A stretch of DNA of 64,000 nucleotides, from the NCBI GenBank assembly GCA_032622095.1, contig CP136066.1:102507319-102571318 (forward strand), read 5' to 3'. Shown piece by piece: positions 309-48,930 of this stretch (its first letter is position 1; each line of letters starts with the position of its first letter). The notes under the pieces are model-generated. The model searched no databases. It saw only the letters and a program-made list of their open reading frames with translations, and was not told the DNA's origin. Made by a program: the position numbers and the translations under genes. This DNA is from Siphonodentalium dalli. Its lineage: Eukaryota; Mollusca; Scaphopoda; Gadilida; Siphonodentaliidae.

Positions 309-494
309 ACATGGATATTCTATATATCATTCCAAAAACAAACACCGTGATTATTTTCTTTATTAAAGTGATGTGAAACATCCAGGAAGGGTGATCAAGT
401 AGAAATGGAGAATAATCTTGCTCAATGTAGTTATTTTTACGAATATTAATCCAAATTGACAACATACACCGCCATTCTGATATATCAATTAATA

Positions 495-2367
495 GTTAGG
501 GAGCCCGCATATGTTCCATTTACACTTTTGCGTACAAAAGGTTTGACCCCCTAAAGTTGGTACCAATAATGGAACATTCTGAAAAACCGATTTCTTAAGT
601 TGCGCATTCCTGGGGTTTAGGGGCCGCTGAACCCCAAAAAGTGCCAAAAATCACTTCTATTTACACTTCCGCGTACATCGATGAATTTTGGTTTGATGAT
701 ACTCCTAAGTGTACTGATTAAGAAAACACAACTTAAGAAAGGGATTTTCCTGGGGTTTTCAGATAAGAAAGGGGGTCCCATGCTGAACCCCAAAACGTGA
801 TTTTTCACTTTTTTTTATACTTTCGCGTACATCCATAATTTTTGGTCTCAAAGTACTTTGATATATACTAATTATAAAAACACAACTTAAGAAGCAACTT
901 TTCCTGGGGTTTTAAGATAAGAAGGGGGTCATCGGGTCACCCCTCAAAACGAAAAACAATCACTTTTATTTACATGATTGCATTCGTCCAACGTGTGTGT
1001 ATGTGCGTACACCCCTGGAACGTTGCACTATTACAACCAATGCATCCCTAAATCGATACGATCAACTTAAGAAATATATATTCATGTCGTTTTCTGATAA
1101 GAACGAGACTTGTCCCCCCCCCCCCCCCACAACCCGATCCATTTTCTAGAACTATAAGTGAGCCAGTTTTATAAAAATTATAGCGGGAAAATCTAGTAAA
1201 ATGTATACAAATGTATATATTTTCGTGAAGCTAAGACATAATGACACTTTTTTGGGCCAAAATTGAAACTCACCATCCAAGATGGCCACCAAAATGGCCG
1301 CCGGAAGTTGAAAATGACATTTGTTCACAAATATCTTCTAGATCAATTCATGCTGTTTGGAACTGGTTGAGTAATGCAACTTTATTTTGTGTTTTGTATA
1401 TTAACTGATAATTGGAGCAATTAAATATGCAATGATTGGGGTCCTAACCCCTTCAGATCCCTCAAAAATTCGATTTTACAGAACGCAGTACAAAATAAAA
1501 AAAAAATCACAATTGGGATTCTAGTCATATTTCAACAAGAAATGAACAGAACATTGTAATGTAAGTGAGGAATATCATTACCTATGAATATTCCAAATAT
1601 CTGGAACCATAAATCTTACCTTGGCTCAAAATGGCTGCGAAAATGGCCGCCAAAATATGGAAAATGGTAAATATTGCCCCAGGGTGTCCTGCAATCGCTT
1701 ACAAGTTGTGGTTGATGTACACAATTGACTAATCTGTTTTCTATACATTGCATACTAACATGTCTGATGCACCATGGATCATTTTTACTATTGTCACCAC
1801 TGACATCACCAGAAATATTGGATTTTTCTCTCACAAACTTGACATAAATATCGGCAAAAATTCACTTTTCAGGGTTCGATCATTTGTTCAAGTAAAATGT
1901 AACTATCTTTGGATTGAAAGGTGTTTATTGTTTTGGTCTATCTTAAATGTATCACACTACGGTGTTTATAGACTAAATTGCTCAAGATGGCTTCCAAAAT
2001 GGCAACCAAATTTGTAAAAAGTTAAAAGTTAACATATCCCGAACATTATTCTCTGCATTATCCGAAAAAAGGTGGCAAATTGTGACTCACTTGGTTATTG
2101 TACGTGTTAGTTACAATGTAATTAACTGACAACTACGTTCTATTATGTTTGTCCCAGTTCCGTATGGGGCATGACAAATTCATTTTAAAGTTGCAGTATG
2201 GAATTTTGCGGAAAACCTCTTTTGTGCTTCTGGCCATATTATTGAAAGGGAATGGGCAGAACTTTGAGACGGAACTGAGATGAGCCATGATATGTGGGTA
2301 TTCTGGCCCATTATGATAAAAAATTATCAACTGGATACAGGGTGGAAGTTAAGATGGCATCCAGGGA
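495..2367 (+). repeat. Left arm of foldback A
   Basis: This arm is the inverted partner of 4752-6576. It contains a C-run (1113-1128), YY1-like AAGATGGCC and ETS-like CCGGAAGT motifs at about 1279-1308, and a second block of AAAATGGC repeats near 1628-1660 and 1985-2005. Related arm sequence occurs in foldbacks B and C (35.4-46.1 kb) and as a solo fragment at 48.4-48.9 kb. Open frames here are short and lie in repeat sequence, so I call no gene. Confidence 0.8.
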
Positions 2368-3005
2368 GTTACTCAATGATCATAGATGATGATAATAGGT
2401 ATACACGGAGTTATTGTATGGTCATGAATGATGTGTGGGTATAAAGGGATTGCCCTGTTTGTAACGGTGGGACGTATATTTATATATGTTGTGGATGTGT
2501 TATCATTGGTGGTGTATGGGGAGTAGATTTATTATCATGGATGGCGTGTATGAGTATGGCAAGTATGGAACCTGTGAGTGGTCGTATGTGCGGATATTGG
2601 TATATCTGGAAGGGATCACCATTGGTGGTTTGCATATGTATACTTGGATTGACTCTATGGTCATGTGTACGGCGAATAGGTATACATGTAGTGGCTGTAT
2701 GGTCCATGGTGAGGTGAATATGTATACAATGAGTGACTGTATGCTCATGAATGTAGTGAATATGTATACATAGAGTGACTATATGGTCATGTGTCGGGTG
2801 TAGGTGTATACCTGGTGTTCATGCATGGTGACTCGTGGCTGTATCGTCATTTGTGGTATGTACGGGTATAACCAAGTATAGGGCTGTACGACCAGGTGTA
2901 CTAGTACATGTACGTGTATAAAGTGGGTGACTGTGTTGTCATGTGTGTGGTGTTTATGTACATATGGAGTGACTGGGGTAATGGGTGGGTTGTACATGTG
3001 TACCT
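2368..3005 (-). repeat. Minisatellite core of foldback A, left block
   Basis: Degenerate tandem units of about 41 bp contain TGACTGTATGGTCATG, GTATACATG and GTGTATATG. This is the reverse orientation of the block at 3093-4750. Frames rich in Tyr, Ile, Thr and His arise here only because the unit lacks stops in several frames. Confidence 0.8.
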
Positions 3006-3092
3006 TGGGCGGCTATCGCTTTCCACAATAACTCAAGGATATGTTAATCAATAGAGAGGTCATGTCATATCGTGGAAAGCGATAGCCACCCA
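3006..3092. repeat. Palindromic hinge of foldback A
   Basis: GGCTATCGCTTTCCAC at about 3010 is repeated as its complement at about 3074, enclosing about 50 bases with a TCAAGGATATGTTAATC motif. Minisatellite orientation reverses across it. The same junction sequence marks arm/minisatellite borders at about 36430-36465 and 39657-39705, so it is a conserved structural part of the family. Confidence 0.75.
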
Positions 3093-4750
3093 TTATCACA
3101 CAGTCATTACATATATACATAAACACCACAGACATAACAATATAGTGACCCACTGTATACATGTACACCTGACCCATGACCACGAATGACCATACAGCCA
3201 CGCGTCACAATGCAGGCACACCGGGTATACTCCTAAACATGACACATAACCATATAGTCACTCCTTGTATATCCATTCATCTCACCATTGGCCATAAGGT
3301 CATCCCCTGTATACCTATTCTCCAAACGCATGGTCAAATATACAATCAATATAAACATCAACACCACAACAATGACCATAAAGTCACTCCGGTATACATA
3401 TGCACATCACCAATGGCCATATAGCCACTCGCTTCATACACATACCCTCACCCATGTTACCTGGTATACTCCTTCACCTGACCTATGGCCATATAGTCAC
3501 CCCGTGTGTACCTATTCAAAACATTCATACACGATCATGGTCAATCCTTGTATACATATTCACCTCAACATTGGACATGTCAATCCCTGTATCCCTATTT
3601 GTCACACCATAGCCGAATAGCCACTCAAGATATACTAATACACCCCAGCCATGACATGTCAGTATAGTCACTCCATGTATGCATGTGCACCTCATCCATG
3701 GCCATATAGCCACTCGCTATATACACATGTCCCTCGCCAATGACAATAAAGCAACACGTGTGTGTACTGGTATAACCTACACATGACGATACCGACACGA
3801 GTCACCAAACAGAAACACCAGGTACATGTATACTCATACGCCTGTCACCCTCTGTATATATGTTCATTACATTTATGATCATACAGTCACTACTTGTATA
3901 CCTACATGTAACCATATCACCATTAACCATACGGTCACTACCTGTATACATATTCGACACTCATAGTCACATAACCACTCGATATACACATGCAGCCCAC
4001 CCTAGACCATAAATTCACTCCAGGTATACATGTAAACCTCACGAATGACCATTCAGCCCTTCCAGATATACAAAAAACCCGCACAAACGACCACTCAAAC
4101 AATCCATACTTGCATATACACCTCACGCATGACAATTCAGCAATTCACTGTATAATCATACACGCCATCCATGATAATACAGCTAAGCCATATACACCCA
4201 CCAATGATCATACATACACGAGATATATAAATATACATCCCACCCGTTACCACAAGGACACTCCCTATGTACCAACACGCTCGATAATGTCCACCCAGCT
4301 TACTCCAGGTATTCATATTCAATCATGACCGTACAGTCATTCCATGTATACCTATACACATTACCCGTAACCATAACATCACACACCCCATCCATGATCA
4401 TACAGACAACGCATGTACATCCCACCCATGACCTTACAGTCACTCCATATATACATAATCAACACATATATGACCATGTAGCTATATACATACACCACAC
4501 CAATGACCATACAGGCACACCGGGTGCACCCGTACTGGATATACACAATAATACACCATACAGTCACTCCATGCATACCGATTCACCTCACATCTGACCA
4601 TGACCTCTCCCTGTATACCTAGATGCATCTTACCATGGACAACCCACTCATAACCATATAGTCACTCATTGTATACCTACTCACATCAGTCATGACATAC
4701 AATAACTCCCTGTATACCTATTCACCTCACATATGATCACAGAGTAACTC
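3093..4750 (+). repeat. Minisatellite core of foldback A, right block
   Basis: About 1.65 kb of degenerate units reads roughly CATGACCATACAGTCACTCC followed by TGTATACATATTCACCTCAC, period about 41 bp. The same unit fills the cores of foldbacks B and C. Overlapping open frames at 3176-3620 and 3990-4597 translate the repeat and have no gene features. Confidence 0.8.
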
Positions 4751-4751
4751 C

Positions 4752-6576
4752 CTGGCTACGATCTTGGCATCCACACTGTATCCTGTTGACATTTATTTTT
4801 ATCATAATGGACCAGAATAGCCAAAGATTATGGTCCATCTCAGTTCTGTCTCAAAGTTCTGCCCATTTCCTTTCAATAGATATGGCCAAAATCACAAAAG
4901 AGGTTCTCGGCAAAATTACATACTCTAAAATGAATTTGTCATGCTCCATACGGAACTGGGACAACTGGGAATAGAACATGTAGTTGTCAGTTAATTAACT
5001 AACACGTATAATAACCAAGTGAGTCACAATTTGCTACCTTTTCGGATAATGCAGAGAATGTTCGGGATATATGTAAAAAAAATTACATTTTGGAAGCCAT
5101 CTTGAGCAATTTGGTCTATAAACACTGTAGTGCGACACATTTAAGATAGACCAAAGCAATAAACACCTTTCAATCCAAAGATAGTTATATTTTTTACCTG
5201 AAAAAATTGTCCAAACCTGAAAACTTAATTTTTGCCAATATTTATGTCAAGTTATTTAGAGAAAAGTCCAATATTTTTGACGATGTCATTGGTGAAAATA
5301 GTAATAATTAACCATGGTGCATCAGACATGTTAGTATTCAATGTACAGAATGCAGAATAGCCCATTTTATACATCAATACAACTTGTAAGCGATTGCAAG
5401 ACACGCTGTGTAATATTTACCATTTTCCATATTTTGGCGGCCATATTGGCAGCCATTTTGAGCCAAAGTATGAATTTTGGTTCCAGTGATTTGGAATATT
5501 CATAGGTAATGATATGCCTCACTTACATTACAAAGTTCTGCTCATTTCTTGTTGAAATATGAATAGAATCCCAATTGTATTTTTTTGTGAAATTTTATAC
5601 CGCATTCTGTACAATCGAATTTTTGAGGGATCGGACCCCAATAATTACATATTTAATTGCTCCAATAATCAGTTAACATACAACACACAAAATAAAGTTG
5701 CATTACTCAACCAGTTCCAAACAGCATGAATTGATCTAGAAGATATTTGTGAAAAAATGTCATATTTTCAACTTCCGGCGGCCATTTTGGTGGCCATCTT
5801 GGATGGTGAGTTTCAATTTTGGCCCAAAAAAGTGTCATTATGTCTTAGCTTCACGAAAATATATACATTTGTATACATTTTACTAGATTTTCCGCTATAA
5901 TTTTCATAAAACTGGCTCACTTATAGTTCTAGAAAATGGATCGGGTTGGGGGGGGGGTAACAAGTCTCGTTCTTATCAGAAAACGACATGAATATATATT
6001 TCTTAAGTTGATCGTATCGATTTAGGGATGTATTGGTTGTAATAGTGCAACGTTCCAGGGGTGTACGCACATACACACACGTTGGACGAATGCAATCATG
6101 TAAATAAAAGTGATTTTTTACGTTTTGGGGGGTGACCCGATGACCCCCTTCTTATCTTAAAACCCCAGGAAAAGTTGCTTCTTAAGTTGTGTTTTTATAA
6201 TTAGTATATATCAAAGTACTTTGAGACAAAAAATTATGGATGTACGCGAAAGTATAAAAAAAGTGAAAAATCACGTTTTGGGGTTCAGCATGGGACCCCC
6301 TTTCTTATCTGAAAACCCCAGGAAAATCCCTTTCTTAAGTTGTGTTTTCTTTATCGGTACACTTAGGAGTATCATCAAACCAAAATTCATCGATGTACGC
6401 GGAAGTGTAAATAGAAGTGATTTTTGGCACTTTTTGGGGTTCAGCGGCCCCTAAACCCCAGGAATGCGCAACTTAAGAAATCGGTTTTTCAGAATGTTCC
6501 ATTATTGGTACCAACTTTAGGGGGTCAAACCTTTTGTACGCAAAAGTGTAAATGGAACATATGCGGGCTCCCTAAC
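4752..6576 (-). repeat. Right arm of foldback A
   Basis: Reverse complement of 495-2367, with small indels and substitutions (for example the G-run near 5946-5956 pairs with the C-run at 1113-1128). Arm divergence is modest by eye. The ETS-like and YY1-like motifs recur in complement at about 5771-5801. Confidence 0.8.
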
Positions 6577-7208
6577 TATAAATGCAATGACTCTCATTTG
6601 TGTTTGTTTATCGCCGATAGTTGCATCCCGAATCCAGATGTAAATATTTACAATTTCAGACGATCTTTTCTATGGAATGGTATTCTCGATTTCTTTGAAA
6701 TTTTCGGCGATGTTAGTAGAATCCTTTAGTCTCCAGGTTGGCATAGTGACCGAGTACTAACTTGTCAGTTTCACGTTCCCGAACAAGTCCATAATATGTC
6801 TTTAATCCTTTCTATACTAAATACTCATTGATGAGCAGTTTCCTTGAACTTCTTATCTGAACATTTCCCACTAATGAATAGGATTCCTTCATCTCTTTCT
6901 ATTTTTTGTCATCTGCTCATATTTCATGAACACCCCTCCAGATGAATAGACCCTTCCCCATGTATAATTTTATGACTGAGTGGGAGAATATATTTAGTAT
7001 CAAGCTCCAGGCAGAGTTATCTCTCATCGCAGTAGTAACGGAGAGGGCGCTGCGTGGAGTTTGATTAAGTATAGGGCCTAACCCATGCACTGCTGAATGG
7101 TTTCTACTTTCGAGTGGTCTGTTCTTTATTTACTGGGGTGTTCAGATAACAAAAGCAGAATGAAAACATCCCAGGGATTCCCAGTTGTAGGTGTGATTGC
7201 CTAATAAG
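6577..7208. other. Flank of foldback A, part of a segmental duplication
   Basis: The sequences just outside foldback A (about 363-492 and 6579 onward) together match 11700-12260, for example TCGCCGATAG, AGATGTAAATATTTACAATT and AACAAGTCCATAATATGTC in the same order. The two segments are therefore paralogous intronic DNA and only this copy carries the insertion. No coding exon is visible. Confidence 0.75.
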
Positions 7209-7625
7209 TTAAAGGTACTCAATCCGATCAGAGGGTCCCCATATCATCAAGATACAACAACAACACTTCTTCAAAATACGCTTTAGTTATCAGAATCGAT
7301 TCATTGCAACAAAATAATGCTAACCACAATCAATTACGGTATCAAATTTCCCAAAACGTGTTATTTATTACCATTTTGTTCAACGAAATATGGCCGTATT
7401 ATCACTTGAGTATTCACGAAATTACGCCGTATTACCACTTGTTTTTAGAGTTATCCATCTTCATCCGTAATTTTTTGATGGCGTGTTTCTGGGCCACAAA
7501 CAATTGAAATAACAAACTTAAAAAATCGGTATCTGATCACTCTGAGTGAGCTTTGAGATATTTTTTGCCCCCGAAGCTAAAGAGATAGTAATTTACGGGT
7601 GTTTAATCGGATTGAATACCTTTAA
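7209..7625 (-). mobile_element. TTAA-flanked MITE, family 1
   Basis: Flanked by TTAA (7209-7212, 7622-7625), with terminal inverted repeats AGGTACTCAATCCGATCA and complement. Other copies lie at 10505-10953, 13132-13587, 28603-29059, 52779-53141 and (partial) about 14890-15115. The TTAA target duplication is the hallmark of piggyBac-type transposition, so this is probably a non-autonomous piggyBac-group element; no transposase is present. Confidence 0.8.
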
Positions 7626-8159
7626 CACCAGGCTCAGGCTGTTTGTTAATTTGTGTATTAAGTGAAGAGCCCTACATAGGAATGAACGGGACTCAAGTAA
7701 CTCCCACTGAAGTCGGTATAGGGTCTCTGTTGGTGGGGGTGTCCCCTTTAAAATTGGATTGCAACTTTCCAACTAAACTAATACCTCAAACTTTCCAACA
7801 GTTGGAAATTTTCAATCAGCCACCCCTAAGGTTGGAACTGATGGCCATTTCAAACCACAATTTTGACCATCTGATGGCCATTTCAAACTGACGGCCATTT
7901 CAAACCACAATTTTGACCAAAAGTAGAAAAATATGGTACTGTTGGTCTAGTAAAAACAACAAATCCCCCCCCCCCCCCGGAAGGAGTACTATTTATTGCA
8001 GGGATATGTTCAGATAATAAGTTCAACAAACGATTTATGTTGAACTTATTATCTGAATATTTTCTAACTACTCGTCAATTTAGTATATGAAGGGTTACAT
8101 AATGATGCCTGGAATTGTTTTTTTAGTTATCTCTAGCGGCTAAATTTAAGACGTTATAT
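7626..8159. repeat. Gene-free stretch with short repeats and a hairpin
   Basis: Holds about three tandem copies of a roughly 30-bp unit, GGCCATTTCAAACCACAATT (about 7840-7920), a C-run near 7966-7978, and a hairpin at about 8005-8060 (ATATGTTCAGATAATAAG paired with its complement). No exon is seen. Confidence 0.6.
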
Positions 8160-8170
8160 GATACACTTCC

Positions 8171-8614
8171 AAGTCTGAGTTTAGTGTGTCTGTCATTTGC
8201 AGAATGAGGTCCCTAGAGGGTGAATTTAGTGACGCTATCCCGCACAGTGGGCTAGCATCACCAAATCCACCCTTTGGTGGCTTCATTCTGCATGGCATCA
8301 TCTGCTATGTGAGAAATATACTCAGATTGAAGTTCCCAAATTGTGAATATTGTGATGTACACTCACTGGGAACCTCGATTATACAACGTGTCGTCTACTA
8401 ATTTGGGGATATTGAGAAACTAAACTAAAAAAGAAATAGAATCTATGTGAATAAGTTTCTATAGAAATTTGATAATAAAGAAACTTTCCAGAGAAGATGA
8501 GGCCTAAGCAGAATGAGGTCCCCAGGGGTGAATTTAGTGATGCTAGCTCGCATCAGTAAATTCACCCTCTGGGTACCCCATTCTGCAAATGACAGGTACA
8601 CTAAACTCAGACTT
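8171..8614. mobile_element. Hairpin MITE (GAATGAGGTCC family) with 11-bp target duplication
   Basis: Terminal inverted repeats AAGTCTGAGTTTAGTGTGTC and complement enclose paired blocks containing GCAGAATGAGGTCCC. The flanks are GATACACTTCC (8160-8170) and GATACACTTGC (8615-8625), an 11-bp direct repeat with one mismatch, the length expected for Mutator-like or similar transposases. The right flank directly precedes the AG acceptor of gene 1 at 8626-8627. Relatives lie near 20595-20893, 50880-51300 and 62037-62360. Confidence 0.75.
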
Positions 8615-8627
8615 GATACACTTGCAG

Positions 8628-8927
8628 GTTGACATCGCACGGAAGGTCAGATTCACTCCGAAGTCATACATAAGGATGTTCTACCACTACTACAGGAGGG
8701 AAGTTGCTATGCTTGCTCCAGGTCGTTCACTGGGTCCAGTGCATCTATACAATGACACTTATTTTGTTAGTGATATTGGATATGGTAGCTTGGAGGCAGT
8801 TATCGTAGATGCAGTGTATTACTCCAAGAGACACAGGAAGAAATTGATATTACCCCAAAAATCAGGCCTTTCTATGGACAAATTTTATGACTACCTTGTT
8901 ACTTCTGGTGTTCCTTATAAAGTTAAG
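8628..8927 (+). CDS. Gene 1, first visible exon
   Basis: Acceptor ATACACTTGCAG before 8628 and strong donor GTAAGT at 8928. Exactly 100 codons, phase 0 at both ends. Contains HLYNDTYFVSDIGYGSLEAV and VYYSKRHRKKLILPQKSG, a dense mix of hydrophobic and aromatic residues typical of a folded domain. The open frame extends a few codons into the intron on each side. A MITE ends 13 bases before the exon. Confidence 0.75.
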
Positions 8928-11900
8928 GTAAGTTTTTTTTATAGCCACCATCATTCACTCACTTTAACAGTACCTTAATATAAAGTTAAAGATTGGGCTA
9001 AGTTAAAGGCACACATCATGGAAACGAAGCTTCTTATATTCAGTTTCATCTTTAATTCGAAGTGATGACACAGTAGGTTTGGACACTGGAGTGAATATAA
9101 CAAGAAGGTGGTAGCTAGAATTTGATATTTTTTTGGTGTTACGTACAGTAATGCCCTAAACAATCGACTAAACTTAACCACAGCAGACTTATGGGTGATT
9201 TGTCATGATTTAGTCGGAAATATGGCTTGTTGCCATTCATCGGAAAGCTCTCGCGGATGTATCTTTGCGTGTCTCATTGTTGCAGTATGTAACTTTTATG
9301 ACCGCTGTAATTGCTTTCGATGTTTAGGTGTGGACAATGGTTAGGCCACTCTTGAAGGTTTTATTGCGGGAACACAATGCATAATATAACAGCTAACATT
9401 GCTGAATAAGTATGTCCCAGTATCGATTAGTAGATTTTTGTATGCATTTAGAGGCTTTCTGGTGTGGTGAACCAAAATGTTTTATATTATCTACATATGC
9501 CTAATAATATGATCTTGACGGCGTTACCATTTCTGATTATAGTTTTCTTGTATGTTTATATTGCCACATTAATGGCCCACTGGAATGCATATATTCGATT
9601 CGAAATTTGAATAAAATTGCGAATATCACCCCCTGATTTGATTGGTTTATATGTGTTGATAAATTACAGGTCTGCATTTAACGTTTCAATGGTATTTGAT
9701 TGGTTTATACGTGTAGATAAATTACAGGTCTGCAATTAACGTTACAATGATATTATAACGTGTTTTATTGATTTTTGATTAGAATAAGCTCGATGGGGTG
9801 GATTGGATGGGGTGGAGATGCCATTGCTTGGATAAATTGATCAAATATGTTAGTTTTCCGAGCGATGGTAAATGGGGGATAATTCTATTATTCCCTTGTC
9901 TCTTGTATATCACCATCACCAAAAGCAAACAAGTACATTAAAATGGCGCATAAGGGAAATGTGGGTTGGGGAGCAAACGGATCGTGTTACAAGCCCCTGC
10001 GGACGGGTGTAATATTTTTAAGAAAATCATCCTAATAATACTGAAACGATACAGGTGTTATGAACTTTGTCATGAAATATAAACACAATTGGATGTCAAT
10101 GATTTTAGTTATCACATCACATCAGATAGTATGTGCATGGTTCGGTTGTAAGTGGTTACTATTTTCCAAACTGACCAACTGACACATCAGCATTCAATAT
10201 ATGATATATTGTAATTTGGTCTAGCTCTGCCACACACTCAATGTTCCAATAACTGTGGAGCGGTGTGTACTTTACATATAGTTGTGCACCTTATATCATT
10301 GGTGATTAATTTCTTTCACAATATGACTTAAATTGAGATTCGGCAAAGAAGGGGTCTCACGGTGTGTAATAATAATTAATAGCCCTATGACTAGAAAGGA
10401 AAGGCAGAGAATATGTGAGTGGCTCCATATTTCATTCTTTAATCATAACCAGAAAAAAATATTTGAGTTATTGATGGCATGTCTCAATGGGATGGTTGGA
10501 AATGATTAGAGATGCATAACCCGAATTGATGCTCCCAAATTACTCTTTCTTTTGCTTGGGGAGGGGGGTAAAATATTTGATTTCAGTCAAGGAACCCACC
10601 CATCAAAGTTCAGAGTGATCAGATATAAATTTTTGAAATTTGTTATCTCCTGACTTAAGTAATTTTTGGCGGCCGGCAAATATTTGTCAAGCCGACAGTC
10701 TCGGACCAAATTGCGGATGAAGATGGATAACTTTATAATCGAGTGGCTTTGGGTGTTAGATATTTGACAATCGGGACTTATTTCGTTTTATCAAAATGTT
10801 GATAAATAACACGTTTTGGGCAATTTTATACTATAGTTGACCATGGTTAGCATTATTTTTGGGCAATTAATCGATTCTGAACTGAAGCGGCATTTCAAAA
10901 AATGTTGTTGGAATATTATATGGGGACCATAGGATCGGATTGAGTACCTTTAACATTTTCAAAAACAATCAATCAATACCAAAATCAATACCAAAATCAT
11001 TACATGTGAAGAGTGTGTCAGCATAAACCGGCACATAAAATATAAACATGATCGGATAAAAATACTTGAATTATCGCGTCGGATGGCACATGTCCATGGG
11101 ATGTATGGAAAGTGTTCACATTTTCTAAACCGATAAATCGATCGATACCAAAAACTAGACAGGTAGGTGACGCCATGATGCGATAGAAAATACTTATGTT
11201 ATCGCATCGGATAGCATGTGTCTATGGGCGACAGATGGGCAGAACAGACTAATAATGGGTGGCTGATCTGGGCGTCCGAATTATGTGTAATATACATGAT
11301 ATGGGTACACATAAAAACCGATTATAAACTGATGAAATAGAAAATTTGGAAAATAAATTCCATAAACATTTATCAAAATATTGAGGTTTCTTTTACAATT
11401 ATACTACATGAAGCTTGAAAATCGCCATGTGTATCTATTAAATTTCAGATCATACGGCTGTCCACAGCGCAGAATATTCTGGAAATAAAAAAGTTTCGTG
11501 GAGATCATACGGAGGAGATAATGAAGCAGCTTGAAGACTATGATTCTGAGATTAGAAAGCAAATGACAAAAATCAGACATAATGTCACTAGTCCACATTA
11601 CAATTACAGACTCGAGCCTTTTGAAATTGCCCCAAGATCAGGTAATTATTCATTTATGTATACTTGTAATCATATAATTGGCTTGTTATTGTTATTTCAT
11701 GATAAATTAAAGTGATGTGAAAACTCCGGTAGGCTGATCAAATAGAAATAGAGAATAATCTTGTTCAAAGTAGTTATTGTCTACAAATATTAATCCAAAT
11801 TGACAAAACAGACCATCATTCCGATATATTAATTATTCTGGATGGCGAAATCATTTGTGTCAGTTGATCGCCGATAGCTGCGTCCCGAATCAAGATGTAA

Positions 11901-13706
11901 ATATTTACAATTGCATGTACATGTAGTTCAGGCGATGATTTCTATGGAGTGGTATGGTGGATTTCTTTCAATTTTTCGGAGATGTTAGTAGAATGCTACA
12001 TTCCACAGGTTGGCACAGCGATTGAGTACTAACATCAATTTCTAGCACCCGAACAAGTCCATAATATGTCGAAGTTACATGTATATATGTAGAGAAAAAA
12101 TCCCAGTACTGGTTAGAATTGAATTTACTTCTATAAATATACATTTGAATGGTCTATTCTTTACTTGCTGAGATATTCTGATAATATGAGCTAACAAGAT
12201 GCCCAGAAACAGCATATGAATTCCCATTAATTCATTTGTAGGATAGTTAGATAACAAATTAACATGTTCAACAAATATCAGATAATAAGTTCATCAAACA
12301 TCCCTAGGATAGAAATAATATTATTACATATTAGTGAGTATTCTGTTAACGATATATCCATGGTTCCAGGCTAATTGTTTCGAAACCGATTTCACTTTTT
12401 AATTTGACTGCAGTGTATACAATATCATGTTTGAAATGAGATGTCCACATGAAAGATGACATACAGTGATCCATAGTTTTGATGTTTTGTTAAATTTCCA
12501 ATAAAAAAATGATATTCTTCGGTATTTATAGGTCTAGTTTATATGTCATATTTTGTTTTCAATATTTTCTCAACAGAGCAAACAATGATGATATATTATA
12601 TTTGATGTTGTTGTAAAAGGTGGTTTGGATTCCTGAATACATCAGGGGTAAATTAATTTATGAAACCAGCAACTCCTGATTCTTAACCCTTTCATGGCAG
12701 GAGCTGCGCTGGTGCAGCATTAAAGATCATGTGCCAGTTCATTCTCTTACATATGCGAGTTTCCCGAAGGGAGCCTCGCATATATAAGAGACTGAACTGT
12801 CTTATATACAAGGTCAAGATAAATATTGTTAGGCCAAAGTATTCTCTTATATATGGGAGGATCCCTATGGGCGACTCGCATATATAAGAAAATGCATTGA
12901 CAAAGGGTTTTCGCAAAATTTCAAGAAGCTCCAATCATGGAAAGGTTAACGATATGTTCAGGGTTCCAGGCTAATTGTTTCGAAATCAATCTCACTTTTT
13001 AATTTTACTCCAGTGTATCAAATATCATGTTTGAAATTCGATGTGCCAAATGAAAGTTGCATTTTTATTTTATATTTATATACAGTAACCGATAGTTTCG
13101 ATGTTCTAGAGGGACACCACAAATTATGTTGTTAAAGATGCATTATCCGAATTAACGCTCCTAAATTACTAAATGGCTTCGGGGGTAACAAAAATATTTG
13201 ATTCGAGTCGAGGAACCCACCCATCAAAGCTCAGAGTGATCAGATATCGATTTTTTATGTTATTTCTCGAGATGTGCAATTATTTGTGGCCCAGAAAAAT
13301 GTCGTCAAACGGACAAAATTGCGGATGAAGATGGATAAATCTAAAATCGAGTGGCAATACGGCCAAATTTCGTGATACTCAAGTGATAATATGGCCCTAT
13401 TTCGTTGAAGAAAATGTTGACAAATAATATGTTTGGGAAATTTGATACCATAGTTGACAGTGGTTAGCATTATTTTGTTGCAATTTATCGATTCTGATAA
13501 CTAAATCGTATTTTGAAGAAATGTTGTTGTTGTTGTTGTTGTATCTTGATGATATGGGGACCGTCTAATCAGATTGAGTACCTTTAATTTTCCAATAACA
13601 AAATGATATTCTTTGGTATTTATAGGTCTAATTTATATGTCATATTTTGTGTTCAATATTTGCTCAACAGAACAAAGCAAACAATGATGTTAAATTATAT
13701 TTGCAG

Positions 13707-35424: not shown

Positions 35425-36427
35425 GGGGTGGGGGAAACGGTATCCCATATATGGGATGTCACTGGGATTGGCTTTTAACAGGCGATATGTCATTTGGTAG
35501 GTATTGGAATACTCTATCCATCGGTAGCCAACAATATATGAAGTGTTCATTGATGACATCACCAGAGATCGAAAGGTCACGTGACGGCAATGAAAGCGCA
35601 AATATAATAGTCTGGAAGCTCATAGGGTACCCCAACACCCCACACCCGTCACCACATGACTTAACTTCACCCCACTCATTTTCTTCCTTATTATGTTCCT
35701 CAACTTCAATGTTAGCACGAAAAGAAAGTGGCCGCGTGGACACGAAACAAGATGGCGACCAACATTGCCGCCGTGTTTTAAGACGAGGCACTATATAAGT
35801 CGGTTTGATGCAAATTATAGAGAGAAAGTCTGGACAAATGTATACATATGTATATATTGTTGTGACGCTAAGACACAATGCAAGCGTTTTAGGGAGCACG
35901 CCTGTCCAAGATGGCCACCAAAATGGCCACCGAAAGTGAAAAATGTGACTATTTTTCACTAATATTTTCTAATTAGTTTGAGACTGGTTGAGAATTGGAC
36001 ATTATTTTGTGTTGCTCATTTTAACTGATCGTTGGAGCAATAAAATATGCCTTTTTTGGACACATGCCCTTCCGATCTCTCAAAATATTAAGTTTACAGA
36101 ATGCGGTATAAAATTTCACAACAAATCACCATTTTTCTCTCACAAACGTTATATAAAAATCGGCAAATTTGTCAGGTTTGGACCATTTTTTTAAAAGTAA
36201 ATTGGTATCTTTGGTAATTAAGTTGTTTATTTTTTAAACTGTCACACATATATGTTTTTAGACAAAATCACTCAAGATGGCTTGCAAAATTTCAACCAAA
36301 TTTGGTAAAATGGACATATATCCCGCACATTATTCTCTGCTATTCTGAAAAGGTAGTAAATTTGGACTCACTTGATTATTAAAATGTTACTTCATCAACT
36401 GAAAACTAAACATCTCTATCGATTAAC
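35425..36427 (+). repeat. Left arm of foldback B
   Basis: Carries YY1-like CCAAGATGGCCACC (about 35907) and a degraded ETS-like CGAAAGTG, plus arm blocks shared with A (GGAGCAATAAAATATGCC, TTCTCTGCTATTCTGAAAAG). Joins the AGTTATTGTGGAAAGCGATA hinge at about 36433. Confidence 0.75.
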
Positions 36428-36740
36428 ATATAGGCCTACTTGAGTTATTGTGGAAAGCGATAGCCACCCCAACGGTACACCTATGGCCGTACGATCACTT
36501 TATATATACACCAGACAAATGACCATATAGCCACTCATTTTATACACAAATGCCTCACCCATGACCATACAGCCACCATTGGGTATATATGTATACCCCA
36601 CCAATGGCAATACAGCCACATGTCACCATGCAGGCACACCGGGTATACTCATACTCCACATAAAGTCCCACCTTGTATACATATATTCATCCTCACTGTT
36701 CCATACAGTCTCTCCCTGTAACCACTCATGATATACATAT

Positions 36741-39700
36741 AGTCTGGTCGATAACAGGTTTGACCTAGAAAAAATTTGGACTAAGTTGGTTTGTATATCA
36801 TTTTGAAGAGGAATATATCCTCCATAACATATCCAAAATCCGCTAAAATCCGCTTTGAGAATTTTTTGTAATTCAAGATGGCGTCCAGGATGGCTGCCAT
36901 TTTCATATAAGTCAGCTTGATGCAATTATAGTGAGAACATCTTGTCATATGTATACACATGTATACATTTTTGTGAAGCTATGACATAACGCCACCTTTA
37001 TGTGCCAAAATTGGAACTCCCCGTCCAAGATGGCCGCTAAAATGGCGACCGGAAGTGGAATTTTTACGTTTTTTTTAATAATATCTTTAAGATAAGTTTC
37101 CGTGGTTTGGAACTGGTTGAGAATTTTACCTTTATTTTGTATTTAGCATGTTAACTGACCATTGGGGCAATGAAATATGCTGTTCGTGAGGTACACACCC
37201 CTTCTGATCACTCAAAAATTCGATTTTACAAAACGCGGTATAACATTTCACAAAAGATCCCCAAGATTCTAATCATATTTCATCAAGAAGTGGGAAAAAC
37301 TGTGCAATGTAACTGATCCATTCTATATCTTATTGATATTCGAACTCAATGGTACCAAAATTGTCACTTTGGCTCAAAATGGCTGCCAAAATGGCCGCCA
37401 AAATATGGGAAATGGTAATTATTATCCCAGCGTGCCACGCAACCGTTTACAAGTTATGGTGATGCACACAGTTGACTATATGTCTTATATAGCTTGAGTA
37501 CTAACATTTCTGATGCACCTTTGGTATTTTGTTACTATTTTAACCACTGAAATTACAAGAATTATTCGAAATGTTCTGTCACAATCCTGATATCAAAATC
37601 GGCAAAAAATCGCTGTTCAGGTTTGAGCCATTTTTTGAAAGTAAAATGGAACCATGTTTGGTATCAAAGATGTTTATTGTTTTAGTATGTGTTACATGTG
37701 TCACACTGAGTTGTTTTAGACATAATTACTCAAGATGGCTTCCAAAATGGCAACCAAGTTTGGTAAACATTATTATATACATGTAAATATGTGTATATAC
37801 GTGGTGTATATGTATACATAATCAATTGTGACTCACGTGCTAATAAATTAACTAAATGTTCTATTCTGATTGTCCCGGTACCCTACGAGTCATGACAAAT
37901 TCATTTTGATGAATGCAATACGGATTTTGTCTAAAACTTCCTTGTTTTTGAACGGAAATGGCCAGAACGTTGAAACCGAATTGAGATGGATAATATTATG
38001 TGGCTATTCTGGTCCATTAGCATCAACATTGATCAACTTAATACAGTGTGTATGTCTGTTGACTGTCTGGTTATAGGCTATGTGAGTAGGTATACATGGA
38101 ATTATTGTATTCATGAATGGTGTGAATAGTTATACAATGTGTGACTATATGGCCATGGATGGGATGTCCATAGTGAGATGTATAGGTATATAAGGAGTAG
38201 CTGTATGCTGATGTGTGAGGTGAACATGTTTACAGCGAGTGGCTGTCTGGTCATTGATGTGGTGTATGGTCATAACGAGAGAAGCTACACTGTCCTGTAT
38301 GTATACATGGAGTGACTGTGTGGTCAGTGGTGGGCTGTACATATGTACATTGGGTGGATGTATTGTCATGGGCGGGTGTTGGATGTATGGTAATGGATGG
38401 GTGTATGTATAAATAGGGTGTTGTTGTGTGGTTATGGGCAATGTGTATATGTGTACATGGAATGACTGCACGGTCATTGTTGAAGTGTATATGCATACCT
38501 GGAGTACAATTTGATGGTCATTGGCAGCTAGTGTATATAGAGAGCAACCTCATGGTGATGGATGGGATGTATATGTTAATATGTACTATTGTATTGTCAT
38601 CGGTGGTGTGTACAAGCATACAGTAACTAGCTGAATGCTCGTGGAGAGGGTGTATATGTATACAGCGAGTGGCTGAATTGTCACGATTGAGCTGTATATG
38701 CAAGTCTGAAGTGTACGAATGGCCGTGTGTGCGGGGTATTGGTATATCTAAAAGGGTTGTATGGCCATTGGTGAGGTATGTATACACACCTGGAGTGACG
38801 CTGTGGTCATGGGTGAGGTGTATATGTATATCACGAGTGACTACATGGCCATGGCACGGCCAATATGTACATAGGTATATGGGGATTGACAGTATGACAA
38901 AATTAATGGTGGGGTGAATTGATATACAAGGAGTGACTATGATCACGACTGTTGTTTATGCGTATACAGCGAGAAGCTGAAATGTCATGGGTCAGGTGTA
39001 TATGCAAGTCTGGAGTGTATGAATGGCCGTATGCGCGGTACGAGACATTGATATATCTAGAAGGGCTGTAATGCCACTTTTGTGAGGTTATATGTATATA
39101 CCTAGAGTGACTCTATGGTTTTGGGTTGGGTGTATATGTATATCTTGGGTGGCTATATGGTCATGGGTGTCGCAAATATGTATATATACAGGGAGTGAGA
39201 CTGTATGACCACTGGTGAGGCAAATAGATATACAAGAAGTAATATATGACAATGGATGTAGCGAACAGGTATGGAGTGACTGTATGGTCATCGGTTAGGT
39301 GTACATGTATATATTTAGTGGCTGTATAGCTATGCATGTGTCAAATACATATACATGGAGTGACTGTATGGCCTATGGTTAGGTGAATAGGTATACAAGA
39401 GGTTACTTTGTGTTCATGTATGTAGTGAATATGTATACAGGTCATGTGAGGTGTAGGAGTATACCTGGTGTGTCTGCAATGTGATTCACGGCTATATGGC
39501 CATGCGTTGGTGTGAGTACCCAATTGTGGCTGTATGGTAATGGGTGATGTGGATGTCTATACAGCGAGTGGCACATGGCCATTTACGTGGTATTCATGTA
39601 TGTATATATGGAGTGACTGCATGATCATGTGTGATTTGTACTGGTGCACCTTTGTGTGACTATCACTTTCCACAATAACTCAAGGATATGTTAATCGATA

Positions 39701-41067
39701 GAGGTAATATCGGAGTGTTCTCCACATTCATTGTGTTTTATATGCAATGTGAAGAAAACGGTTTTCCTGACAATAGTTTATAAGTTTTTGATGCTAATGG
39801 GCCAGAGTAGCCACATAATATGATACCTGTCCGATCAGGTTCAACGTTCCGTCCGTTTCCGTAAAAAACATGGACATAATCCCAAAAGAGGTGTTCGGCA
39901 AAATTCATACTGCATCCCTTAAAATTAAGTTATCGTGCCCCATAAGGTTTTGGGACAACCATAATATAAGATTAAGTTGTCAATTGATTAAGTAGCATGT
40001 TTAATAACCAAGTGAGTCACAATTTGCTACAATTTCGGAACAGCCGAGAATAATGTTCGGAATATAAACTTTTTACTAAATTTGGTTGCCATTTTGCATG
40101 TAATCTTGAGTAATATTGTCTAAAACACCACACTATGCCATATTTGAGGCATATCAAAATAAAAAGAACCTTTGATACTAAAGATGGTGATTTTTTAGCA
40201 GAGTTTGATGCTGTTTGTGATAGAAAAATCCCATAATTCTGGTAATTTCATAATGTTAAATAGTAAAAATTAATAAAGGTGCATAAGAAATGTTGGTATT
40301 CAATGTATATAATACGGAATAGTCATTTGTGTACATCACCATAAATTGTAAGCGGTTGCATGGCACGTTGGGATAATAATTAACATTTTTCCATATTTTG
40401 GCGGCCATTTTGACAGCCATTTTGAGCCAAAGTGACAATTTTGGTACCATTGAGTTCGAATATCAATAAGATATAGAATGGATCACTTACATTGCACAGT
40501 TCGTCCCACTTCTTGGTGAAATGTGACCAGAATCCCAAAGGGGATCTTTTGTAAAATGTTATACCGCGTTTGTAAAATCGAATTTTTGAGTGATCGGAAG
40601 GGTGTAGACCCCCACGAACAGTATATATCATTGCTCCAATGGTCAGTTAACATGCTATATACAAGATAAAGTTACAATTCTCAACAAGTTCAAAACCTCA
40701 GAAACTTATCTTAAAAGTATTAGTAAAAACGTATAAATTCCACTTCCGGTAGCCATTTTGGCGGCCATCTTAGACGGGAAGTTTCAATTTTTGCACATAA
40801 AGATGGCGTTATGTCATAGCTTCACAAATATGTATACAAGTGTATACATATGACAAGATGTTCTCACTATAATTGCATCGAGCTGACTTATAGGAAAATG
40901 GCAGCCATCTTGGACGCCATCTTGAATTACAAAAATTGCCCAAAGCGGATTTTAGCGGATTTTGGATATGTTATAGAGGAGAGCTTCCTCTTCAAAATGA
41001 TATAAAAACCAACTTAGTCCAAAAAAATTCTAGGTTAACCATAAAATTTGAGTTTATCGACCAGACT
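36741..41067. mobile_element. Foldback element C, nested in B (about 4.3 kb)
   Basis: Ends AGTCTGGTCGATAA (36741) and TTATCGACCAGACT (to about 41067). Arms 36741-38070 and about 39720-41067 pair throughout, with ATCCGCTAAAATCCGCTTTG near the outside and CCGGAAGTGG / CACTTCCGG inside. The core (38075-39655) is the 41-bp minisatellite in reverse orientation, then the hinge at 39657-39705. It interrupts B's minisatellite, so it is younger than B. Confidence 0.8.
38075..39655 (-). repeat. Minisatellite core of foldback C
   Basis: Reverse-orientation units such as TGACTGTATGGTCATGGGTG. Multiple overlapping frames on both strands (38145-38946) translate this repeat. No gene. Confidence 0.75.
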
Positions 41068-41697
41068 AATATACTCCCCACCATAATCATTGAGTCGCTC
41101 CAGGTATACATATACACCTCACCTATATGGCAATACAGGCACTTGGTTTATACATATACACCTCACCCGTGACCACACAGCCACACTATTCAGCCACTCA
41201 GCCATGAGTCACCATGCATGCACGCCAGGTATACTCATACTCCACATAAAGTCCCACTTTGTATACATATATTCTCCTCACTATTCCATTCTCCCTGTAG
41301 ACATATTCGCCACAACAGTGGTCACAACCACTCCAGGTATACATATACACACACACATGACCATTGAGTCGCTACAGGTATACATATACACCTCACCTAT
41401 ATGGCAATACAGGTACATGGTTTATACACATACACATTACCCGTGACCACACAGCCACACTATTCAGCCACTCACATGACAATACAGACATTAGTCACCA
41501 TGCATGCACACCAGGTATATACTACTACACCTGACCCATGCCTTCCTGTATACATATTCTCCATGCTCGGGGATAATATAGTAACCTATTGTAATACCTA
41601 TTCACCTTACCATTGGCCACATGGTCACTCCCTGTATACATATTTACCATGCCCATGGCCATATAGCCACTCCATATATATATATATATATATATAG

Positions 41698-41745
<48 letters not shown>

Positions 41746-42424
41746 CACCAATGGCCATATGACCACTCGCTCTATAGACAAACGCCTCACACATGACCAT
41801 ACAACCACAATTGGGTATACCCATATACCCCACATATTACCATACAGTAATGCACCATGTCGTCACACTACTTACACCCCTACCCCTGACCCATGACCAT
41901 ATAGTCACTACCTGTATTCCTATCCACCAGCCATGATCATACAGTCACCCCAGTATACATATTTACCTCACCATTGCCATATAACCACTCAAGATATACA
42001 TATACACCCTACCCATGACCATAGAGTCACTGCAGGTATACATATACACATCGAAATCACCATACAGCCCTTCCAGATATACAAATACCCGCACACGTCC
42101 ATTTATACCTTCTAAACTTGCATATACGCCTCACACATGACAGTTCAACCACTCGCTGTATACACATACACCCATCCATGATCATACAACTAACCCTTGA
42201 ATACATATACATTCACCAATGGCAATACATCCACAGCAGATATACATATGCATACCACCCATTACCATGATGGCACTCCCTATATATCCACATGCCCATC
42301 AATGACTATCCAGCTATACTGCAGGTATGCATATACACTTCAATTGTGACCATATTGTCATTCCATGTACACATATACACCTTATCCATAACCATACAAC
42401 CACTCCCTGTTTATTTATCCTTAG
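41068..42424 (+). repeat. Minisatellite core of foldback B, main block
   Basis: Units like CATACAGTCACTCCCTGTAT and ACATATACACCTCACC. A TA microsatellite lies at about 41674-41740. Continuous in type with 36466-36740 and 45100-45520. Confidence 0.75.
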
Positions 42425-42896
42425 AACATTTCCGTGACGTCATCCATTGTTTGTAGCAGGTAAGGTGTCTATCATGACGAATAGACACAATGGGCTTGTT
42501 GTATTGGTGTGTAATTGACACAAGCGTTGGATATCTGGGTGTGACAATTGGATATTACGGATATCCAACTGTTGGATATTACAAATATCCAATTGTTGAG
42601 ACAATAAGTCAGACACTTGGTTCGATTCAAGTCTTTGCGACCAATATGGTGGGGCTGAGGCGTGGAGGGGGGGGGGGGGGTCTTACACACAAACACACAG
42701 CAGTATCAATTTAGAAAATACATTATAACGTCAATGTAAGTTATCCATTGAGGTCCGGTGACCGACCTTTATATCCTGCAAAGATATTTAGGTCATCGCA
42801 TGTGCTGCGTGATTAAAATAATATATGCCAATATGGCATTGTGTTCCCGCAACACTCATTGATGATTGACCAACTATGCACTCCCGAGCATTCAAT
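42425..42896. other. Non-repeat insert inside foldback B, first part
   Basis: Short palindromic GGATATTACGGATATCC units at about 42540-42600, a G-run at 42666-42680, and unique sequence. No gene is supported. Confidence 0.5.
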
Positions 42897-44756
42897 CAAA
42901 AGATTGATCCACTTATAAGCGTTACTGATATGCGCTGTCACACCAAGTTTTCTTACAACAAGCAAATGCAGGGACGTATCGACATAAAATGCGGGGAGGC
43001 GACACACCATGCCAAATATTTAAATGTTGATAATCCAAATCAGTTTGTAATGGCGAGTACGCCACACTAGAACTTAGTAAGTGGAATAGTTACGTTGATT
43101 TTATGGAATTTCATAAAATGTTAAGAATTTGCAAGTCAAATGCGGAAATTGAAGATCGTTTTACACATGCAACGACTACTATATACTTACAGTATATAAA
43201 CCTCATTCGATAACTTACGTTGGTCAAGAACTGCTTGTAAATCCAACTTCGAATTCATGGAATAAATAAATCCGATAAGCAGTATAATACGAAATCGGCT
43301 CCTCGAAAGAATTTCCAATATTTTTTATTCCAATATTAACGGAAAACATCAGTTGGATCATCGGCCGGATCGTCATTTACCTCCGGGCGCTTGTGATGTT
43401 TATTTCGCTTATAAAACGGACGCCATGCTGATAACATATAACTATGTAATATCCATTTAGATAACGTCGACACAGAAAGTGTAGAAAATTACTTCGTTCG
43501 TCTTCGTCGGACGAAAATAGCACATAAGTACACACGCAGAATCAGTTTTGACAATAAGTCAAACATTACTTATCTAGAATGCAATGTCAAACGTTAAGTC
43601 CCCCTTCCGAATGCGGAGTGTGGTCGCGTCACGTTTTCAACCAATGTCATATTCATGTTCACGTTCGTTCGTGTTTGTTCGGTCCACATTCTGAAAGTTT
43701 TGGAGAAAAATTAGCAAACAAGTGCAACGTACGCCGGGTAGTATTTTGTGACGTGTGCATACTGTAACTGAGTTATACTCAGCCTATGATACTGGTAAAA
43801 TTCACTCTTCTCACCCGTGCTGATATCAAAAGATTGATCCACTTATAAGCGTTACTGATATGCGCTGTCACACCAAGTTTTCTTACAACAAGCAAATGCA
43901 GGGACGTATCGACATAAAATGCGGGGAGGCGACACACCATGCCAAATATTTAAATGTTGATAATCCAAATCAGTTTGTAATGGCGAGTACGCCACACTAG
44001 AACTTAGTAAGTGGAATAGTTACGTTGATTTTATGGAATTTCATAAAATGTTAAGAATTTGCAAGTCAAATGCGGAAATTGAAGATCGTTTTACACATGC
44101 AACGACTACTATATACTTACAGTATATAAACCTCATTCGATAACTTACGTTGGTCAAGAACTGCTTGTAAATCCAACTTCGAATTCATGGAATAAATAAA
44201 TCCGATAAGCAGTATAATACGAAATCGGCTCCTCGAAAGAATTTCCAATATTTTTTATTCCAATATTAACGGAAAACATCAGTTGGATCATCGGCCGGAT
44301 CGTCATTTACCTCCGGGCGCTTGTGATGTTTATTTCGCTTATAAAACGGACGCCATGCTGATAACATATAACTATGTAATATCCATTTAGATAACGTCGA
44401 CACAGAAAGTGTAGAAAATTACTTCGTTCGTCTTCGTCGGACGAAAATAGCACATAAGTACACACGCAGAATCAGTTTTGACAATAAGTCAAACATTACT
44501 TATCTAGAATGCAATGTCAAACGTTAAGTCCCCCTTCCGAATGCGGAGTGTGGTCGCGTCACGTTTTCAACCAATGTCATATTCATGTTCACGTTCGTTC
44601 GTGTTTGTTCGGTCCACATTCTGAAAGTTTTGGAGAAAAATTAGCAAACAAGTGCAACGTACGCCGGGTAGTATTTTGTGACGTGTGCATACTGTAACTG
44701 AGTTATACTCAGCCTATGATACTGGTAAAATTCACTCTTCTCACCCGTGCTGATAT
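42897..44756. repeat. 930-bp tandem duplication, two copies
   Basis: Copy 1 (42897-43826) and copy 2 (43827-44756) appear identical by eye over their full length; landmarks such as GGGACGTATCGACATAAAAT recur at a constant offset of exactly 930. Each copy carries a 62-codon frame (43579-43767, 44509-44697) without splice or family support. It is either a very recent duplication or an assembly artefact. Confidence 0.85.
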
Positions 44757-45018
44757 GGAAATGAGTAGATGATTGGAGACATTCAATGGGCAAATTCGCC
44801 CGACAACAACGTGTTAATTAATTATATTAAAGCGTGGGGTAAGCTAATCGCCGACAAAGACAATATCATGCTTGGGCTCGCGAAGGGGGTAATAGAATAT
44901 CTAAATTTCATTTTTCAAAGTGTGTATATTACTCAATCAATTAACATGATTTGCTTCTTTCTGGTATCTGGTTTCTGACATCTTGAACCACCATACGGTC
45001 AGAAATGTTCTAAGTAAG
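44757..45018. other. Insert inside foldback B, last part
   Basis: A 69-codon frame at 44769-44978 (starting MIGDIQWANSPDNNVLINYI) has some non-repeat character but no splice sites, neighbours or motif to support a gene. Confidence 0.4.
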
Positions 45019-45020
45019 AT

Positions 45021-45097
45021 AGACCCCTCGGTGGTATTGGATATGCGGGAGAAACAACCCCGTTTCTCCCGCATATCCAATACCAACTCGGTGTCTA
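45021..45097. repeat. Hairpin of about 77 bp
   Basis: Arms of about 35 bp with TGGTATTGGATATGCGGGAG and complement around a loop AACAACCCCG. It lies at the border between the insert and the renewed 41-bp minisatellite. Confidence 0.85.
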
Positions 45098-45529
45098 TTT
45101 ATAAAATACACCCCAACCTATGATCATATACCCACCACATGTATACATATACATCCATCTGTGAGAATACAGCCACCAAGGTACACCTCTACATCTCACC
45201 CATGGCCATACAGTCACTCCATATATACATAAACAACACACAGATGACCATACTCTCGTTATACACATACACAACATCAATGACCATATGGCCAAATCGG
45301 GTATATCACTATGCCAACACATAATCATACAGTCAATCCCTGCATACATATTCACCTCACACATGTCCAAACAGCCACTACTTGTATACCTATATATCCC
45401 ACCATGGACACCCCAAACTATGACCATATAGTAACTCCTTGTATACACATTCACATCATTCATAATCATACATTAACTCCCTGTATACCTATTCACCTCA
45501 CTTATGGCTGCATATACACTGTATGGCTG

Positions 45530-46132
45530 CCATCTTGACACCCACACTGTATAAAGTTTATCAAGTTTGATGTTAATGGGCCAGAGTGGCCACATAGTTT
45601 GGTCCCTCTCAGTTCCATTTAAAATTCGGCATAAATGGATACCATAATTGGGTATACATTTTTCACGTTCGGCTCCAATTTTGCCCTAAACCCTAACATA
45701 GTGTCTTAGTTTCACAACAATCTATACATTTGTATACATTTGTGAAGATTTTTTGTCTCTATAATTTGCATCAAACTGACTTATAGTGCCTCATCTTAAA
45801 ACACGGCGGCCATGTTGGACGCCATCATGTCTTTCTTTTCGTGCTAACATTACTTAAAAGTTGAGGGACATAATAAGGAAGAAAATGAGTGGATGAAGAT
45901 AAGTCCTGCTGTGCAGGGTGTATAGGGTACCAAATCAGCTTCCAGATTATTAAATTTGCGTTCTCGTTGCAGTCACGTGACATTTTGATATCTGGTGACG
46001 TAATCAACGAACACGTCATTATTTTTTGGCTACCGCTGGATTGAGTATTCCAATACCTGTACGATGACATATCACCTGTTAAAATCCAAGCAAAATGATA
46101 TCCAATATATGGGATACCGTTTCCCCACCCCC
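45530..46132 (-). repeat. Right arm of foldback B (shortened)
   Basis: Pairs with 35425-35880 and contains TTAATGGGCCAGAGTGGCCA, shared with the inner ends of the other arms. About 0.4 kb of arm present on the left is missing here. Confidence 0.75.
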
Positions 46133-48425: not shown

Positions 48426-48930
48426 AATCCAAGGACAACTTCACCCCACTCATTGTCTTCCGTATTATATCCCTCAACTGTTAAGCAAAAAAGTCGCCGT
48501 ATAGACAGATACCAGTCAAGATATGACATCCATCATGGCTGCCGGTTTTTTTTCAGGCGAGGCCCAACGTCAGTTTGATGAAATTTATAGTGAGGATAAT
48601 CTTGTCAAGTGTAAACAATGTATATATTTGTTTAACCTTAGACATGCCACCTTTATAGAGCAAAATTGGAACTTCCCGTCCAAGATTGCCGCAAAAATGG
48701 AAAATAATTATGACGTTTTTTCACTAATTTCTTCTGTTTTAGTTTTTGTTGTTTTAAACTGGTTGAGAATTGTAACACTATTTTCTACTTTTCATATTGT
48801 ATTATCAATGGAGCAAAGACATATGCCATTCATGGTGGCCTCAGGCCCTTGCAATCCCTCAAAAATTTGATTTTACCAATGCGGTATAACATTTTACACT
48901 TAAAATCACAACTGGGATTCTAGTCATAAT
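48426..48930 (+). repeat. Solo, truncated foldback arm
   Basis: Matches the B/C arms in order: AACTTCACCCCACTCATTGT, TTTATAGTGAGGATAATCTT, CCGTCCAAGATTGCCGC, TCAAAAATTTGATTTTACC. No inverted partner is present nearby. The 115-codon frame at 48523-48870 is arm sequence. Confidence 0.75.

Follow-up and report, generated by a model that had tools for sequence, protein, structure and literature searches.

The window, by which we mean the whole 64,000-nucleotide stretch of the Siphonodentalium dalli genome analyzed here, carries toward its left end a foldback element, A, that interrupts a repeat of about 370 bp, with a second copy of that repeat a few kilobases to the right. The features of this part of the window are the following, with the strand given where one applies:

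362–489, forward: left part of the TTAA-flanked ~370-bp host repeat, from flank match and empty-site alignment; the target bases 490–492 come next.
490–492: left target site duplication, TAA, from the host-repeat empty-site alignment and a 3-bp match at both ends.
493–6578: foldback element A, 6086 bp, with ends TAGTTAGGGAGCCCGCATATG...CATATGCGGGCTCCCTAACTA; boundaries from the empty-site alignment and the 3-bp end match.
493–1392, forward: left outer arm of A, homogenized with the right one; across 18 copies none of its 900 bp carries a fixed left/right difference, and within-copy similarity exceeds permutation.
651–928, forward: direct subrepeats of ~154 bp in the left outer arm (651–774 and 805–928), from self-comparison, with mirror copies at 6144–6411.
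1393–2435, forward: left inner arm, which differs from its right counterpart at fixed positions.
2436–4741, limits approximate: center of the element, in which a degenerate ~42-bp unit forms inverted arrays, from self-comparison.
3006–3092: hairpin at the axis between the two arrays (−22.6 kcal/mol, z −7.0).
5679–6578, reverse: right outer arm, from the same 18-copy comparison as the left.
6579–6581: right target site duplication, TAA, on the same evidence as the left.
6582–6800, forward: right part of the host repeat, from flank match and empty-site alignment.
11706–12070, forward: second copy of the ~370-bp repeat (the "paralog" of the first-pass annotation), one of a set with 39 other scored copies at 82–87%.

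Self-comparison of the window bears out the 6.1-kb inverted-repeat unit that the first-pass annotation had described: the arms of A run for about 1.95 kb at 90% identity within 6.09 kb, and the outermost segments (488–815 against 6256–6583) form a 99% inverted match, with identity dropping inward. These inverted-repeat arms make up most of A and its center consists of inverted arrays, which is the organization of a foldback. The motifs AANATGGC and ATGGCNGCC, which we take to resemble YY1 sites, recur in both arms, at 1279–1643, 1984–1996 and 2351 on one strand and at 5103–5800 and 2240 on the other; AANATGGC occurs 13 times in the arms as against a Markov-control mean of 1.1 (maximum 6) and 4.9 per equal length in the remaining window, counts in which the two arms are not independent.

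The boundaries of A were obtained by joining its flanks and aligning them with the repeat copy at 11.7 kb and 12 other copies from the genome. The insertion site then reads ...AAT-TAA-ATGCAATG..., with TAA present once in all 12 of the other copies, three of which (L011, L013 and L021) have single-base differences near the site, and on both sides of A. The window paralog is missing about 10 bases adjoining the junction and the A-bearing copy about 12 bases slightly to the right of it, and hence the exact empty site is readable from the other repeat copies only. A begins TAGTTAGGG, and the flanking TA at either end is part of the terminal inverted repeat; the element therefore spans 493–6578 rather than the 495–6576 first assigned to what is otherwise the same unit. 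By the same token, the TA that had been suggested as the target is the outermost dinucleotide of the element, and what is duplicated is a varied, AT-rich 3-bp target.

Family A is widespread in the genome. The exact 21-base end TAGTTAGGGAGCCCGCATATG is found 616 times (298 forward and 318 reverse), while its reversed-pattern control is found 0 times; among 100 matches listed, we counted by eye 22 facing pairs of ends no more than 13 kb apart. Of 20 loci fetched, 11 align with A end to end in one piece at 93–98%, and four more align in two pieces covering both ends, the others having larger insertions or a missing end. Deletion copies of 680, 687, 1952 and 4582 bp are also present, and variants of the A end segregate on both sides. 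Three copies lying about 15 kb apart (L031, L036 and L040; C4:120385659–120424906) have an identical right flank and probably reflect a tandem duplication that carried A along. The exact ends, the end-to-end copies elsewhere and the 3-bp target duplications together confirm that A inserted whole and is mobile.

Target duplications were compared in A and in a second family, B, described below. Among 24 pairs of A ends in the fetched loci (a count that excludes L036, L040 and L043, in which one end is missing), 17 show a 3-bp duplication, two, the short copies L047 and L048, match over 4 bp, and five have no 3-bp match (L028, L029, L031 and L032, together with the second of the two L045+L046 elements), as is also the case for L051 of family B. 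In 17 further A pairs chosen regardless of their flanks, 14 match over exactly 3 bp against 9% in a mismatched-pair control, and in family B the figure is nine of 10 pairs against 13%. Combined, these give 3 bp in 23 of 27 pairs, no excess of 1-, 2- or 4-bp matches and none at 5–8 bp. Thirty-one of 42 duplications from A and B, a set made up of found duplications with the pairs lacking one excluded, contain TA, and 16 are TAA or TTA (TAA alone, 11), as compared to 16% and 5%, respectively, of all triplets in the window. A thus duplicates 3 bp of an AT-rich target that usually contains TA, and does so at dispersed insertions, as expected of a foldback transposon. Tc1/mariner elements do not fit, with 2-bp matches no more frequent than in the control and the TA lying inside the inverted repeat. 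CACTA elements have CACTA ends, and those of A and B begin TAGT.

The copies of A that were scanned encode no protein that could be recognized. The longest stop-to-stop frames of 18 full copies span 120–220 aa and fall largely in the 42-bp arrays (129 aa in the window copy), and five of the longer ones, from five copies, gave no Pfam match. In two longer B copies of 2.2 and 2.7 kb (L051 and L052), stop-to-stop frames do not exceed 111 aa; four frames of L051 yielded two weak Pfam matches, DUF2678 (E 0.023) and LCAT (E 0.091), both below curated cut-offs. A 12.3-kb candidate autonomous element, the sole facing pair more than 10 kb apart among the 100 matches listed, turned out to be two adjacent elements without a transposase. 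We followed 40 of the unpaired A ends on contig C1, a part of those there. In 35 the A core is present 1 kb inward; among the remaining five, the core lies nearer the end in two, low-copy DNA (2 and 7 genome matches) follows in two, and one runs into a different high-copy element, whose copies occur in facing pairs. That sequence, in the A end from C1:187440424 onwards (L142, L150), has 1334 candidates genome-wide, 40 of them scored at 98–100%, and several of its copies form facing pairs about 4–11.5 kb apart; it is a different, apparently young element with inverted ends.

A further locus considered as an autonomous A, L043 (C3:150937518–150946518), was rejected, as its A sequence ends 2.3 kb in and the foreign DNA belongs to another high-copy element. 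This foreign DNA (2908–9001 of the locus) contains open frames of 254 and 364+ aa, which found no Pfam or PHROGs match and gave chance-level PDB matches; in appearance they resemble Polinton-type capsid proteins. The 364+ aa frame has 2024 genome candidates, of which 112 were scored with 115 matches, many in 436-aa frames, and its 22 matches on C1 are all at least 306 kb away from any exact A end. No transposase was seen in any A or B copy scanned or sampled, and mobilization of A in trans is thus an inference.

We assign A to no superfamily. In PIF/Harbinger elements, the excerpted text of PMC2213677 describes TTA/TAA targets and inverted repeats of 14–25 bp. A could be a non-autonomous member of this superfamily in so far as the duplication length fits, TAA and TTA are among the commonest targets, and the corresponding transposase domain, DDE_Tnp_4, is plentiful in the genome, where 910 candidates gave 150 scored matches, many of them lying in long open frames. 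Against this, 26 of the 42 duplications are neither TTA nor TAA, the arms are about 2 kb long rather than 14–25 bp, and the TAGT end is without the G(N)5GTT motif which the same excerpt gives for Medicago PIF/Harbinger elements (PMC2213677). Moreover, of the 17 DDE_Tnp_4 matches listed for C1, the nearest is 31 kb away from one of the 79 exact A ends on that contig, a check made with exact rather than diverged ends. Hence, we consider a PIF/Harbinger origin possible but unlikely.

Other systems with long arms or short duplications share individual traits with A. As described in the portion of PMC3573991 available to us, Galileo of Drosophila (P superfamily) resembles A in having very long, internally repetitive inverted repeats and many transposase-less copies, with chimeric copies ascribed to ectopic recombination and conversion; it differs in its 7-bp target duplication and in having a known transposase (PMC3573991). 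Likewise, according to part of PMC4079207, the foldback Tetris of Drosophila virilis has no coding capacity, tandem repeats in its long arms and no autonomous partner found, all as in A, but it makes 8–10-bp duplications and has a ~220-bp arm unit, as against 3 bp, a ~154-bp arm unit and a 42-bp central unit in A (PMC4079207). A is thus neither Galileo nor Tetris because of their target duplications, and a Mutator-type or P-type foldback, for which 7–10 bp would be expected, is set aside on the tally of 23 in 27 pairs at 3 bp. Zator elements share the 3-bp duplication, per the excerpt of PMC10045372; our search for their ISAzo13-type domain (PF07592) returned 0 matches, as did its 14 controls. 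Fot elements of the pogo group resemble A in duplicating TAA, which they do in 341 of 385 cases in the excerpt of PMC7386202, unlike A and B with just 11 of 42. In the titles and abstracts of the open-licence literature searched, a corpus separate from Repbase-type databases, no foldback with a 3-bp target duplication was named. A represents a familiar class of element, the foldback DNA transposons, here with a clean nested empty site and with a 3-bp duplication that we have not seen reported for foldbacks in the parts of that literature consulted.

Comparison of the arms of 18 copies oriented by their centers reveals two regimes. In the outer 900 bp there is no fixed difference between left and right, and when different copies are compared, arms from opposite sides are about as close to each other as arms from the same side. 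Inward from about 900, the difference per 100-bp step averages 7–16% between the left and right arms of one copy, as against 3–5% between same-side arms taken from different copies. Over positions 1–900 the distance between the arms of one copy is 0.0235 as against 0.0274 when arms are randomly paired (0 of 20,000 permutations as low), with no within-copy effect at 951–1450 (P 0.18; 18 copies). A repeat with 15 of the 18 copies, omitting the window copy and the two L045+L046 elements, gave 0 of 20,000 for 1–900 and 4345 of 20,000 for 951–1450. Fifteen of the 18 copies compared were picked by similarity to the window left arm, which biases the between-copy distances and limits statements on age; the within-copy permutation test is unbiased by that selection under an additive model. 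Since the outer arms of a copy are closer than permuted ones and the inner arms are not, it is shown statistically that, after the family had spread, the two arms of a copy were still being copied onto each other, or one was repeatedly rebuilt from its partner.

Might the likeness of the arms within a copy be no more than subfamily history, with no later exchange? The end variants that segregate in the family on both sides of the element speak for it; yet a split of left and right before the spread predicts equal within- and between-copy distances for opposite arms, and these are equal at 951–1450 and unequal at 1–900. We accordingly regard it as improbable and retain arm-to-arm copying. One copy of A without a target duplication, at C1:10683985–10689837 (L053, L054, L152–L159), has flanks that mirror each other at 40 of 40 bases, as compared to 6–15 of 40 in the other 16 pairs, with no mirroring in 100-base samples taken 500, 2000, 5000 and 20,000 bp outward; the description of this copy comes from 60 bases per side and these four outward samples. 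The mirrored flanks could represent a copying tract that ran past the element end or, alternatively, an assembly error. Together, the outer-arm similarity and this copy point to arm-to-arm copying.

Farther along the window lie three more sequences related to A:

35425–46132: foldback C, older, with ends GGGGTGGGG... that differ from those of B and nine exact ends genome-wide.
36740–41068: foldback B, with ends TAGTCTGGTCGATAA, flanked by ATA at 36737–36739 and 41069–41071.
48571–48928, forward: fragment D of the core, 72% identical to A.

B starts with TAGT, as does A, and exact matches to its 15-base end number 2471 across the genome (reversed control, 1). It appears nested inside the older C, which has the same core and different ends, and at whose own ends no target duplication was recognized. 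The core is about 77% identical between A and B, begins 684 bp from the end of A (at about 1176) and 189 bp from that of B, and is represented in part in C and D at 72–78%. Outside it, the ends of A and B show no match at the thresholds used save the short TAGT start. The two longer B copies mentioned above keep the B ends around a different interior, with a 3-bp duplication in one and none in the other (L051). That a single core is combined with several kinds of ends is the strangest feature of the locus. A speculative account, to which we give little credence, is that the TAGT-ended, 3-bp-duplicating A and B constitute an undescribed DNA-transposon superfamily, with the core (42-bp inverted arrays and repeated ATGGC motifs) passed between the unrelated end modules A, B and C by arm-to-arm copying.

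The surroundings of A had been interpreted as one of two copies of an intron segment produced by segmental duplication, which A then entered at a TA target. Alignment of the flanks does cross the junction collinearly, with 362–491 matching 11706–11835 at 85% (E 4e-34) and 6594–6800 matching 11851–12070 at 79% (E 2e-33), and a TA adjoins the boundaries first proposed at every end displayed. However, nothing to the right of A matches past 12070, so that of the single matching segment claimed for about 11.7–12.26 kb the part up to 12070 stands, and the match ends there, not at 12260, because the host repeat ends there. Used as a query against the 2.23-Gb genome in nine contigs, 11700–12260 gave 7288 first-look candidates, of which the 40 scored (the window copy and the 39 others) end at query position 371; the left flank alone gave 2420 candidates. 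One end of the repeat is TTAA in all 12 copies aligned, and the other is TTTAA or TTTTAA in 11 of the 12 and TTTACT in one. We take the repeat to belong to the TTAA class, and it is most likely a miniature element, present twice in the window if the copy split by A is counted. A duplication preceding the insertion is thus contradicted by a matching segment that is a high-copy dispersed repeat, by similarity that stays within it and stops at its own TTAA, TTTAA or TTTTAA ends, and by the duplicated 3 bp lying outside a TA that is itself within the inverted repeat, making this scenario very improbable. A in its host is one mobile element nested in another, unrelated one, and because of this nesting the "empty site" is the normal sequence of the host repeat and not a segmental duplicate.

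Beside the 11.7-kb segment, a putative intron, an open frame is followed by GT at about 11640; a Pfam comparison of six open frames from the window, including two close to this position, gave no match. Separately, a ~120-bp inverted repeat is located at 189–310, to the left of the host repeat, and a ~59-bp unit occurs twice, 100 bp apart, at 12741–12899, each with a short palindrome noted by eye.

The notion that A is no transposon at all and that its inverted duplications were propagated by recombination or replication errors might draw on the exchange of sequence between arms and on the copy with mirrored flanks, but it founders on two families that, each with its own defined ends, make 3-bp duplications at dispersed sites, and on the clean empty site of A in the host repeat, and can be dismissed.

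We therefore favor, with a probability of roughly 0.87, the reading of A as a non-autonomous foldback DNA transposon that inserted as a unit, presumably moved in trans, had its arms copied onto each other and is nested in a TTAA-flanked repeat; speaking against it are the failure to find a transposase-bearing copy, the A pairs without a duplication (five of 24 and three of 17) and the two short copies that match over 4 bp, and it is further limited by the selection of the arms compared and by the possible assembly error at the mirrored copy. Mechanistically, we posit that A would be cut and pasted by a transposase supplied in trans, which may bind the conserved ends and perhaps also the 154-bp subrepeats. 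Hairpin or gap repair might then copy one arm onto the other, and a copying tract could overrun the element end and so mirror the flank.

The locus supplies a foldback element whose natural empty site is defined to the base, in a family whose hundreds of exact ends make arm homogenization measurable. The sharp border at about 900 bp and the copy with mirrored flanks make it testable how the arms of foldbacks stay alike and whether the copying passes the end of the element.
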